In this document: one piece after another, positions 54,141 through 59,810 of the stretch
Layout of the letters: each line of letters opens with the position of its first letter
Numbering within the stretch: position 1 is the first letter of the stretch
DNA from: Lachnospiraceae bacterium
Lineage (GTDB): Bacteria > Bacillota > Clostridia > Lachnospirales > Lachnospiraceae
NCBI GenBank assembly: GCA_017617545.1
Contig: JAFZVZ010000017.1
Location: 1 to 64,000 of the forward strand
Reading direction: 5' to 3'
DNA length: 64,000 nt
The notes under the pieces: model-generated
The model's input: the letters and a program-made list of their open reading frames with translations, nothing else
The model's database searches: none
Told to the model about the DNA's origin: nothing
Translations under genes and position numbers: made by a program

Positions 54141-54169
54141 TTGACAATTGCCGTATCATGTTGTACTAT
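54141..54169 (+). promoter_or_regulatory. promoter of the T-box leader
   Basis: TTGACA (54141-54146), 17 bases, TACTAT (54164-54169). The predicted transcript start is near 54176, at the beginning of the T-box. Confidence 0.8.
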
Positions 54170-54175
54170 AACGCG

Positions 54176-54472
54176 CAACGGGGCTTTTGTCCCGCGTTAA
54201 ATGCTAGGAGCAGGATTAGTAACTGTGCGTCCGGTTCAGAAAGCTGTCGGTTGATGCGAGACAGTCGACGATACACGGTGAACTCACCTGGGAGCTGCCG
54301 ATTGAAGACCGAAATCAGTAGGTTGTGTAGATTGAGCCGGGAGCCCGCCGTTACAAGGGCAGAACATCGACTGCGGTCCGTGTTCGCTGAGTGCATGAGA
54401 GATCATGAAGTAGAGTGGTACCACGCATATTGCGCCTCTACTGTCCGAAAGGGCAGTAGAGGCGTTTACGAT
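54176..54472 (+). ncRNA. T-box leader, leucine specifier (CUC)
   Basis: A leader RNA of about 300 nt that senses uncharged tRNA. Stem I has the helix CAGG/CCTG, then AGTA facing GAA (the loop E motif), then ACTGTG/CACGGT. The bases just after GAA are CUC followed by A, in the specifier loop; CUC is a leucine codon. The distal part has the usual CAGAAAGCTGTCGGTTG and GCGAGACAG segments. The linker CGCCGTTACA and the T-box sequence AGAGTGGTACCACGC (54413-54427) follow. Its UGGU would pair with an acceptor end ACCA, as in tRNA-Leu. AGTAGAG can pair with CTCTACT (antiterminator), or CGCCTCTACTG with CAGTAGAGGCG (terminator, ending near 54465 with a short T run). The alternatives exclude each other. 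Confidence 0.93.
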
Positions 54473-54528
54473 TCCATACACCTGCCTCACTGCCGATCAA
54501 TACTTGGATGAAATGAAAGGAAGACATC

Positions 54529-57054
54529 ATGAAGATCAGTTTCTCCACATTGGGATGTCCGGATTATTCTTGGACCGACATTTACACGATGGCAAAAGAC
54601 CTCGGTTACCACGGTATCGAGATCCGCGGTCTCGGGAATGACATTTTGGCGACGAGAGCGAAGCCATTTTCCGAAGCACAGCTTCCGAACACGGTCGCAA
54701 AGCTTCGTGAGATCGGGATCGAGGTATCCTGCCTTTCTTCCGGCATCGCATTGAAGTATCAGGCGAAGCTTCCGAAGATCATGGAGGAGTTGACGGCGTA
54801 CGCCAAGCTTGCAAACGCGCTTGGAACCGCGTATATCCGTGTTCTTGCCGATGAGCATCCCGCACCCGAGGGCGAGGTTGACGATGAGGCGATCATCGCG
54901 ACACTGAAGCAGCTCGTGCCGATCGCGGAGGAGTACAACGTAACGATGCTTGTTGAGACGAACGGCGTATACTCCGACACGGCGCGCCTGAAGAAGATCC
55001 TCGACGCAGTCGGAAGCCGCAAGATCGCAGCTCTTTGGGATATTCATCATCCGTACCGCAACTTCGGTGAGACGCCGGAGCAGACGGTAGCGAACCTCGG
55101 CGAGTACATCAAGTATGTCCATGTGAAGGACTCCGTGTGCCGCGACGGCCGCATTTCCTATCGCATGATGGGTGACGGCGACATGCCTCTGAAGGACGCA
55201 TTTGCCGCGCTGCAGAGCATGCACTACACCGGCTACGTATCGCTTGAGTGGGTGAAGCGCTGGTCGGCGGAGCTTGCGGACGCTTGGGTCGTGTTCCCGC
55301 AGTTCGCGAACTACATGCGTCCTTACAAGACGAAGCATAAGCACGCGCTGCAGACGGACAACCGCGGCACGGGCAACTATATCTGGCCGAAGGAGCGTCT
55401 GATCGACTATACGTTCCCGGATATCCTGGACCGTATCTGCGAGGCTTTTCCGACGCAGTACGCGTTCCGCTACACGGAGCTTGATTACACGAGAACGTAT
55501 CCTGAGTTCCGCGACGACGTTGACAATTTTGCGAGAGCACTGATCGCGATGGACGTGAAGAAGGGAGATCATGTTGCCATCTGGGCAACGAACGTGCCCG
55601 CATGGTACATCACGTTCTGGGCAACGACGAAGATCGGCGCTGTCCTTGTTACGGTCAATACCGCATACAAGATCCACGAGATCGAGTACCTGCTCCGCCA
55701 GTCCGATACGCACACGCTCGTCATGATCGACGGCTTCAAGGATTGCGACTATGTCGGAACGATCAAGGAGCTCTGCCCTGAGCTGGAGACGTGCGAGCCC
55801 GGCAAGCTGGAGAGCGAAAGACTGCCGTATCTGAAGAATATCATCACCGTTGACAGCCGTCAACCCGGTTGCTTTACCTGGGAGGAGGCGTTCAAGCTCG
55901 GTGAGACCGTGCCGCTGACGGAGGTTGAGAAGCGCCGTGCGGCAGTTGACAAGCACGATGTGTGCAACATGCAGTACACCTCGGGTACCACAGGTTTCCC
56001 GAAGGGCGTTATGCTCACGCACTACAACGTTGTCAACAACGGTAAGGCGATCGGCGACTGCATGGATCTGTCCACGGCGGACCGCATGATGATCCAGGTT
56101 CCGATGTTCCACTGCTTCGGTATGGTGCTTGCGATGACCGCGTCCGTGACGCACGGCGTTACGATGTCCCCGATCTCGGCATTTTCCCCGAGAAAAAGTC
56201 TGGACTGCATCAACCGCGAGAAGATCACGTGCTTCCACGGCGTTCCGACGATGTTCATCGCGATGCTCGGACACGAGAATTTCCCGAAGACCGATTTCTC
56301 GCATATGAGAACCGGTATCATGGCAGGTTCGCCTTGCCCGATCAAGACGATGGAAGAGGTCATCGAGAAGATGCACATGCCCGAGATCGTTATCACCTAC
56401 GGTCAGACCGAGGCATCGCCCGCAACGACGATGAGCAAGACGAGCGATACGATCGAGCAGCGTGTCAACACCGTAGGACCTTCGATCTTCGGCGTCGAGA
56501 CCAAGATCGTGGATCCCGAGACCGGCGAGGAGCTTCCGGACGGCGTACCGGGCGAGTTCTGCGCGCGCGGGTACAACATTATGAAGGGCTACTACAAGAT
56601 GCCTGAGGCAACTGCTGCGGCGATCGATGAGGACGGCTGGCTCCACTCCGGAGACCTGGCGCTTCGTCGCCCTGAGGACGGATACTACAAGATCACCGGC
56701 CGTATCAAGGATATGATCATCCGCGGCGGTGAGAACATCTATCCGAAGGAGATCGAGGACTTCCTTTACACGTACGACAAGGTGAAGGACGTTCAGGTCA
56801 TCGGTGTTCCGGATGCGGATTACGGCGAGGAGATCATGGCCTGCGTGATCCTGCAGGACGGTGCAGAGTGTACCGAGGAAGAGATCAAGGATTACGTCCG
56901 CACGCACATGGCAAAGCACAAGGTGCCGAGATACGTGGATTTTGTGTCGGAGTTCCCGATGAACGCGGCCGGCAAGATCCTGAAGTACAAGATGCGCGAG
57001 GAGGCTGTGGAGCGCCATAACCTTCATACCGCCAACAAGATCGAAACAGCGTAA
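54529..57054 (+). CDS. fusion of a TIM-barrel isomerase-like domain and an acyl-CoA synthetase
   Basis: An 841-residue two-domain protein under the leucine T-box. Residues about 1-275 form a sugar-phosphate isomerase/epimerase-like TIM barrel (AP endonuclease 2 family) with likely metal residues in LVETNG, LWDIHHP, YVHVKD and SLEWVK. Residues about 290-835 form a complete AMP-dependent acyl-CoA synthetase: the phosphate loop YTSGTTGFPKG, YGQTEAS, GWLHSGDLA, GRIKDMIIRGGENIYP and the catalytic Lys in AAGKILKY. It should activate a carboxylic acid to its CoA ester; the acid is unknown. Control by leucine starvation suggests a branched short acid such as isovalerate, or a role in leucine supply, but this is inference. 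GAAAGGAAG precedes the ATG and a strong terminator follows, so it is a single-gene unit. Confidence 0.9.
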   Translation: MKISFSTLGCPDYSWTDIYTMAKDLGYHGIEIRGLGNDILATRAKPFSEAQLPNTVAKLREIGIEVSCLSSGIALKYQAKLPKIMEELTAYAKLANALGTAYIRVLADEHPAPEGEVDDEAIIATLKQLVPIAEEYNVTMLVETNGVYSDTARLKKILDAVGSRKIAALWDIHHPYRNFGETPEQTVANLGEYIKYVHVKDSVCRDGRISYRMMGDGDMPLKDAFAALQSMHYTGYVSLEWVKRWSAELADAWVVFPQFANYMRPYKTKHKHALQTDNRGTGNYIWPKERLIDYTFPDILDRICEAFPTQYAFRYTELDYTRTYPEFRDDVDNFARALIAMDVKKGDHVAIWATNVPAWYITFWATTKIGAVLVTVNTAYKIHEIEYLLRQSDTHTLVMIDGFKDCDYVGTIKELCPELETCEPGKLESERLPYLKNIITVDSRQPGCFTWEEAFKLGETVPLTEVEKRRAAVDKHDVCNMQYTSGTTGFPKGVMLTHYNVVNNGKAIGDCMDLSTADRMMIQVPMFHCFGMVLAMTASVTHGVTMSPISAFSPRKSLDCINREKITCFHGVPTMFIAMLGHENFPKTDFSHMRTGIMAGSPCPIKTMEEVIEKMHMPEIVITYGQTEASPATTMSKTSDTIEQRVNTVGPSIFGVETKIVDPETGEELPDGVPGEFCARGYNIMKGYYKMPEATAAAIDEDGWLHSGDLALRRPEDGYYKITGRIKDMIIRGGENIYPKEIEDFLYTYDKVKDVQVIGVPDADYGEEIMACVILQDGAECTEEEIKDYVRTHMAKHKVPRYVDFVSEFPMNAAGKILKYKMREEAVERHNLHTANKIETA

Positions 57055-57184: not shown

Positions 57185-57257
57185 AGGGGTATAGTTCAGC
57201 TGGTAGAATAACGGTCTCCAAAACCGCAGGTCGTGGGTTCGAATCCTACTGCCCCTG
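57185..57257 (+). tRNA. tRNA-Trp (anticodon CCA)
   Basis: A 73-base cloverleaf. Acceptor AGGGGTA pairs with TGCCCCT and the discriminator is G, as usual for bacterial tRNA-Trp. The D arm contains TTCAGCTGGTAGA, the anticodon loop is CTCCAAA with CCA, and the T arm is GTGGG/CCTAC with the TTCGAAT loop. The 3' CCA is not encoded. No terminator is seen before the next gene, so both may share a transcript. Confidence 0.97.
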
Positions 57258-59576: not shown

Positions 59577-59596
59577 TCGGCAAGAGTAAGATAACA

Positions 59597-59810
59597 GTTT
59601 CCTGGGGTGTTCGATACCTCCGTCATTTTTGAACCTACAAATCGACATAAGGGATTCCAATATTTGTATGCGGATGTCAGGCCTCCTTTGCAGTGGAAGG
59701 CAGAAGTATACGTGAGGTCACCCACCTGGCTACTGGCTGGGAGTCAAAAAGCGGAGCCGGCATCCCGGGATTTCAGCAAACATTTGTTCGAACAAATGTT
59801 TGCTTTTTTC
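59597..59810 (+). ncRNA. ssrS: 6S RNA
   Basis: The 5' part TTTCCTGGGGTGTTCG and the 3' part GCCGGCATCCCGGGATTTC pair to make the closing stem (CCTGGGGTG with CATCCCGGG). Both correspond in position and sequence to the E. coli 6S ends CTGAGATGTTCG and GGCATCTCGGAGATTC. A purine/pyrimidine-rich central region of about 140 bases would give the open bubble that imitates a melted promoter and sequesters the housekeeping RNA polymerase. A TAAGAT -10-like box lies at 59587-59592. The transcript ends at a perfect hairpin AGCAAACATTTGTT/AACAAATGTTTGCT (59775-59804) and a T run. The region has no protein frame. Confidence 0.82.

Follow-up and report, generated by a model that had tools for sequence, protein, structure and literature searches.

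This analysis concerns a window of 64,000 nucleotides from a gut bacterium of the Lachnospiraceae (assembly GCA_017617545.1, contig JAFZVZ010000017.1, positions 1 to 64,000), in which a T-box leader with a leucine specifier precedes one gene, hereafter the fusion, that joins a xylose-isomerase-like TIM barrel to an adenosine monophosphate (AMP)-forming acyl-coenzyme A (CoA) synthetase. T-boxes are switched on when their cognate transfer RNA (tRNA) is uncharged. An earlier note on this DNA had described a leucine T-box before a synthetase fusion, an observation that is confirmed here, and had proposed that the synthetase may activate isovalerate when leucine is short. The locus comprises the following features.

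54141-54169, + strand: sigma-70-like promoter TTGACA-17-TACTAT, a consensus match only (10 of 12 consensus positions)
54197-54442, + strand: complete T-box leader, RF00230 (103.1 bits, E-value 1.2e-21, cut-off 93, model positions 1-219)
54283-54285, + strand: specifier triplet CUC, a Leu codon, within the specifier loop, from sequence and alignment
54410-54441, + strand: antiterminator helix (-9.1 kcal/mol folded alone, z -1.4)
54416-54419, + strand: acceptor-pairing UGGU in the T-box bulge, from sequence aligned to the RF00230 model
54432-54465, + strand: terminator hairpin (-29.9 kcal/mol, z -6.7), overlapping the antiterminator 3' arm
54529-57054, + strand: fusion gene, xylose-isomerase-like TIM barrel and AMP-forming acyl-CoA synthetase, 841 residues (Pfam domains; best NCBIfam match PRK12583)
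54592-55263, + strand: AP_endonuc_2 domain, residues 22-245 (Pfam), with putative metal ligands E143, D171, H198 and E240
55432-56595, + strand: AMP-binding domain, residues 302-689, with YTSGTTGFPKG (Pfam, 314.6 bits; invariant residues)
56749-56976, + strand: AMP-binding_C domain, residues 741-816, with K816 (Pfam, 66.8 bits)

The RF00230 match covers stem I, the specifier loop and the antiterminator bulge, exceeds the curated cut-off and has the second-best score among the 12 T-box matches of the whole genome, in agreement with the complete T-box that had been claimed. The specifier CTC adjoins the GAA at 54280-54282, as previously read, and was also returned by our script (same T-box, L002); the cmscan alignment has a one-base gap there that is compatible with CTC. 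The earlier note had named any specifier other than Leu as refuting its reading, and this condition does not apply. The TGGT of the acceptor-pairing segment likewise agrees with the earlier note. From its codon the leader is a leucine-type T-box, predicted to bind tRNA-Leu. The antiterminator and terminator had been called mutually exclusive and do have the segment CCTCTAC (54435-54441) in common, the antiterminator being the weaker of the two helices.

A tRNA (57185-57257, + strand) is the next feature on the same strand, so that the fusion is, as the earlier note had it, the sole protein gene directly behind the T-box; a tRNA also lies behind the fusion in loci L029, L030 and L031. Both AMP-binding and AMP-binding_C exceed their Pfam cut-offs, and K816, which we take to be the catalytic lysine of the synthetase, is invariant in 41 sequences. 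By its domains the product is an AMP-forming acyl-CoA synthetase, and isovalerate is its putative substrate. Its best NCBIfam match, PRK12583, reaches 703.7 bits, below the cut-off of 832 for membership of that subfamily. The TIM barrel gave only weak sequence matches to solved structures (AsbF, E-value 5.5e-5), and the roles of E143, D171, H198 and E240 as metal ligands are assumed by analogy.

The fusion occurs in at least 80 further loci of Lachnospiraceae, Ruminococcus and other Clostridia, including Ruminococcus flavefaciens 007c, a carrier that also has LeuB. A class sample comprised 393 Clostridia genomes of at least 90% completeness, and 151 of them match the fusion at an E-value of 1e-150. 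The match bears the TIM part in 103 of these and in G624 (TIM-bearing on reading); the remaining matches listed start within the ligase. Sixty stretches were picked from the 151 matching genomes for the study of neighbourhoods. The ligase loci number 156 (L013-L108 and L242-L301), of which our open-frame script kept 148. Among the loci that it lost is L013, the locus of the window itself, which an antisense frame masks, and several loci share a genome (e.g. L015, L068), which makes the counts partly non-independent. The fusion has a split form, since at L288, L289, L296 and L301 the ligase stands alone beside a separate TIM barrel gene. A LeuA-like gene with a LeuA_dimer match stands immediately before the ligase at 35 of the 148 loci.

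A T-box core lies before the synthetase in 54 Clostridia loci, whether the latter is fused, alone or behind the LeuA-like gene. Among the loci with at least 350 nucleotides upstream (17 of the 148 were too short to be scored), the core precedes stand-alone fusions in 25 of 87 cases, operons with the LeuA-like gene in 20 of 27 and ligases without the TIM barrel in 9 of 17. The scripted specifier is CTC or CTG in 50 of the 54 cores, and the remaining four (L046, L084, L095 and L297) read CTC by eye. Furthermore, Rfam-confirmed T-boxes, with CTC by eye, precede the LeuA-like/fusion operon in three Lachnospiraceae genomes (G081, G120 and G096). No T-box core was found at five R. flavefaciens loci (L037, L040, L042, L047 and L059), of which L040 offers only 310 nucleotides upstream. 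The cores were located by motif and script rather than with a covariance model of leucine T-boxes, and degenerate T-boxes may therefore be missed. A Clostridiales-1 RNA (117.6 bits) was observed near the G120 operon, at L179:15882-16047.

For none of the remaining 11 T-boxes in the window's genome did the specifier script return CTC or CTG. These T-boxes presumably precede valS, proS, tyrS, pheS, thrS, metG, ileS, a trpE-like and a trpB-like gene, a gene for a PaaK-type ligase and one unassigned gene. The script gave the expected codon for ValS, TyrS, ThrS and MetG, was wrong or off by one for PheS, IleS, TrpE, TrpB2, PaaK and ProS, and was ambiguous once; because of these miscalls, the isoleucine, valine and phenylalanine readings given below rest on pattern and eye. 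In the window's genome (G000), the T-box at C32:18608-18819 (L005) has the scripted specifier ACC, and the open frame behind it resembles, as we judge it, a 2'-5' RNA ligase.

Three of the LeuA-like partners were scanned with Pfam and match LeuA_dimer with E-values from 1.9e-31 to 2.9e-28. On the other hand, none of the 32 partners long enough for alignment of the metal site keeps any of the Asp, His, His and Asn residues to which we ascribe metal-site roles in LeuA, and all are kept in 7 of 7 reference LeuA proteins. The partner was considered as a working isopropylmalate synthase, a reading that was rejected because these metal-site residues are lost, and it is hereafter termed the LeuA relic. 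At L079:5001-8078, the TIM barrel, the ligase and a C-terminal LeuA_dimer form one protein, and no LeuB over cut-off was found in that genome. In many lineages the relic, or the fused LeuA_dimer, probably gives leucine feedback control of the ligase.

The state of the TIM site differs with the presence of the relic. In the 89 fusions without a relic, E143, D171 and E240 are kept in 89/89, position 198 is His in 69 and Gln in 20, and K200 and D201 are invariant, so that this TIM barrel looks like an active metal enzyme. In the 35 loci with a relic the site is often decayed, D171 being replaced by Asn in 21 and E240 lost in 21. Since the ligase is kept in these loci, and since stand-alone ligases with the same leucine T-box exist, the ligase seems to work without the TIM barrel.

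Neighbouring genes were counted within 6 kb of the ligase at the 148 loci, many of whose stretches end before 6 kb. Complete genes for VorBAC, a 2-oxoacid:ferredoxin oxidoreductase, lie near the ligase at five loci (L242, L243, L248, L250 and L272), a branched-chain aminotransferase (IlvE) at five (L242, L243, L245, L248 and L250), four of them with VorBAC, a NifJ-type oxidoreductase at six, an MbcS-like ligase at 17 and PaaK at three. Of the proteins scanned, VorB and IlvE exceed their NCBIfam cut-offs; the hits of VorA and VorC to families of beta and gamma subunits fall short of theirs. L248 and L250 carry, on one strand, the LeuA relic, the fusion, IlvE, a P-loop protein, VorB, VorA, VorC, a helix-turn-helix (HTH)-cupin and an MbcS-like ligase; a leucine T-box heads the L248 cluster, and none was found for L250. 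Five of the operon NifJ proteins were tested and group in a single clade (100/100), separate from 14 further NifJ-type proteins among the Lachnospiraceae genomes searched. As side observations, the P-loop protein, of about 225-240 residues, accompanies VorBAC in L242, L243, L248, L250 and L272, and the one copy scanned gave no NCBIfam match at an E-value of 1e-20. A further neighbour, which by look only we take to resemble an amidohydrolase, occurs at 12 loci (e.g. L255:9521-10324), and a 6S RNA (75 bits) lies in the window at 59596-59775 (+ strand) and is present also in L029 and L030.

Comparable switches with other specifiers precede related ligases. HTH-cupin-ligase proteins lie behind T-boxes read, by pattern and eye, as ATC (Ile, n = 17) or GTA (Val, n = 2); several Ile leaders (e.g. 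L320, L321 and L323) had a second candidate triplet, which was set aside. For the two HTH-cupin ligases scanned, MbcS (NF047394) is the best NCBIfam match, at 445.1 and 454.3 bits and thus below the cut-off of 850, against which three ligases without the HTH-cupin part scored 439.5, 424 and 400.7 bits; all five are termed MbcS-like only. Only the first 115 residues of the L243 HTH-cupin-ligase fall within its stretch, and the L261 copy is cut at the contig end. At L317, a Val T-box is followed by the ligase, IlvE, the P-loop gene, VorB and VorA. In G189, of the window's genus, L314 has an Ile T-box upstream of a ligase-matching stretch with an internal stop, then the P-loop gene and VorB; in the same genome, the HTH-cupin-ligase genes at C6:73776-76037 and C1:145948-148209 have in-frame stops, by decay or assembly errors. 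The window's genome itself has, at C43:25426 (L004, L172:5753-7749), a T-box whose specifier, read by eye, is UUC (Phe). The PaaK-type ligase behind this T-box scores 542 bits, below the PaaK cut-off of 646, and is followed by a 147-residue protein that resembles the ACT-domain protein of L063. This ligase would, judging by its specifier, be the phenylalanine counterpart of the leucine switch. MbcS of Staphylococcus aureus works best on 2-methylbutyrate and isobutyrate and only poorly on isovalerate (PMC10026030), a preference that fits a separate ligase for leucine.

The state of the de novo leucine pathway was compared in genomes with and without these ligases. The window's genome (97.6% complete) has IlvE; LeuB did not reach the cut-off in it, IlvC gave no match, and no protein of LeuC size was found, the single aconitase-family match lying in an 826-residue frame. 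In its nearest fusion-bearing relatives (G189, G039 and G134), LeuB over cut-off and a protein of LeuC size were likewise not found. Per-genome LeuB status was sorted from E-values, genomes absent from the listed matches being counted as without LeuB, and the p values overstate independence because the genomes share ancestry. In Lachnospiraceae, LeuB passes the cut-off in 1 of 14 fusion genomes (including G097 and G115, whose matches lack the TIM part and run to or near a contig end) versus 177 of 186 others (p 7.5e-14). In the class sample, LeuB is present in 4 of 28 LeuA-relic genomes versus 235 of 365 others (p 2e-7), and the 24 relic genomes without LeuB over cut-off are the same 24 without an IlvC match better than 1e-8. 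LeuB coexists with relic-free fusions in 61 of 75 genomes, a count that leaves out G624. IlvC is kept in G081, G115 and G193, where neither LeuB over cut-off nor a protein of LeuC size was found, so that the need there looks specific to leucine. The fusion as a simple replacement of LeuBCD was rejected as a general account because the Lachnospiraceae signal has no equivalent at class level; the signal belongs to the LeuA-relic genomes. The system is an addition where LeuB coexists and may be a replacement of the de novo route in other genomes.

Taken together, we give a probability of roughly 0.78 to the reading in which the leucine T-box-controlled ligase activates isovalerate for reductive carboxylation to leucine. 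When leucine is short, the T-box would read uncharged tRNA-Leu and transcription would run into the CoA ligase gene, whose product would convert isovalerate (3-methylbutyrate) to isovaleryl-CoA. VOR enzymes can carboxylate branched acyl-CoA reductively, and in relatives VorBAC or a NifJ-type oxidoreductase would turn isovaleryl-CoA into 4-methyl-2-oxopentanoate, from which the branched-chain aminotransferase would form leucine. This would be the leucine arm of a salvage of isoacids into amino acids, whose isoleucine and valine arms in relatives would use the MbcS-resembling ligases for 2-methylbutyrate and isobutyrate. The proposal of isovalerate activation made in the earlier note is supported by the recurrent leucine specifiers, by the clusters of VorBAC, aminotransferase and MbcS-like ligase in some relatives, by the LeuA domain in cis (L079) or as an upstream relic, and by the missing LeuB and LeuC-sized proteins in the window's genome and its three relatives. 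A wider reading, moderately probable, is that gut and rumen Clostridia possess an isoacid regulon under T-box control. In it, the ligases for isovalerate, 2-methylbutyrate, isobutyrate and phenylacetate would each stand behind a T-box of their own, for Leu, Ile, Val and Phe, respectively, the ligases would feed VorBAC, IOR or NifJ-type oxidoreductases and an aminotransferase, and a dead isopropylmalate synthase or its fused domain would act as leucine feedback sensor.

Several results weigh against the isovalerate-to-leucine reading. The terminator hairpin at 54432-54465 is followed by a poor U-run (GTTTACGATT), and a scan for terminators did not list it. Orthologues without T-boxes and with unrelated neighbours had been named as a check; leucine T-boxes do recur, but 62 of the 87 stand-alone fusions with enough upstream sequence show no T-box core, and the gene-neighbourhood comparison found no neighbour common to many stand-alone fusions, so that the reading withstands this check only in part. 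A complete VorBAC or NifJ-type gene lies within 6 kb in only 11 of 148 loci (at a twelfth, L298, VorB is cut by the stretch end at 5.97 kb), and no VorB was found in the window's genome, where only NifJ and an IorA-like POR_N match are present. The proposed route includes no step for the TIM barrel. An apparently intact LeuA (PRK03739, L171:8033-9790, C19) persists in the window's genome although LeuB, LeuC and IlvC were not found there. Finally, fusion and LeuB are independent at class level (LeuB in 66 of 104 fusion genomes, G624 included, versus 173 of 289 others, p 0.56), and LeuB passes the cut-off in 35 of the 50 fusion genomes reached through fetched loci.

The scarcity of oxidoreductases near most of the 148 loci would suit a scheme in which isovalerate is activated but isovaleryl-CoA primes iso-branched fatty acids when leucine is short, with no leucine made. 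MbcS of S. aureus does so with 2-methylbutyrate and isobutyrate (PMC10026030). This scheme is nonetheless improbable, given that VorBAC and IlvE, unneeded for fatty acids, share clusters with the ligase, that a LeuA feedback domain has been recruited and that LeuB is mostly missing from the LeuA-relic genomes. The Ile, Val and Phe T-boxes before other ligases speak against it as well, phenylalanine not being known for such a role in fatty acids. The unvarying E143, D171, E240, K200 and D201 of the relic-free fusions, together with the LeuA retained by the window's genome without LeuB, LeuC or IlvC matches, point to a different alternative, namely that the ligase acts on another acid, such as a product linked to the TIM barrel or to LeuA, in a leucine route not yet described. 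The decay of the TIM site in many relic loci where the ligase persists, and the stand-alone ligases bearing the same leucine T-box, speak against this account, which is likewise improbable. A catabolic role, in which the cell would gain energy by oxidising leucine to isovaleryl-CoA and isovalerate, could draw on similar enzymes running oxidatively. Against it, a gene behind a leucine T-box is induced when leucine is scarce, activation is the favoured direction of an AMP-forming ligase and a feedback domain implies biosynthesis; we regard this role as very improbable.

Compared with known systems, the proposed conversion of isovalerate to leucine is closest to the carboxylation route that was reportedly the subject of physiological studies by Allison, Bryant and Doetsch in 1962 and Allison et al. 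in 1966. Both would add one carboxyl to the acid to give leucine in anaerobes of the rumen, ruminococci included, and R. flavefaciens carries the fusion; the ligase gene, the T-box and the LeuA-derived domain are what is added here. PMC7356843 refers to isovalerate carboxylation to leucine in the rumen and cites Allison 1962/1966. The physiology is old (known since 1962), and candidate genes for the ligase, the reductase and the aminotransferase, with their control, are offered here. MbcS of S. aureus also activates short branched acids and is the best match of the two scanned Ile/Val sister ligases; it differs in serving fatty acid synthesis (PMC10026030), and the leucine-controlled fusion best matches PRK12583, below cut-off. 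The PaaK-type ligase of the window's genome shares with the fusion a T-box preceding a ligase for the acid that would correspond to the amino acid, but belongs to another ligase family and is followed by an ACT-domain-like protein instead of being joined by a LeuA domain. Leucine T-boxes that control genes for biosynthesis, tRNA ligases and transporters (PMC2494555) have the same sensor and specifier class, whereas the target gene here is an acyl-CoA ligase. Among the matches listed from the open literature, no paper joined T-boxes to acid ligases; key T-box surveys fall outside this coverage and may hold a prior listing, so we make no claim of a first report.

The regulatory readout names the amino acid that each ligase serves, and T-box specifiers thereby offer a route to annotating vaguely defined acyl-CoA synthetases. 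The proposed system would exemplify how an enzyme that has lost its activity can be given a new use as a feedback sensor. It would furthermore alter which Clostridia are predicted to be auxotrophic for branched-chain amino acids and would bear on why fibre-degrading rumen bacteria benefit from isoacids.

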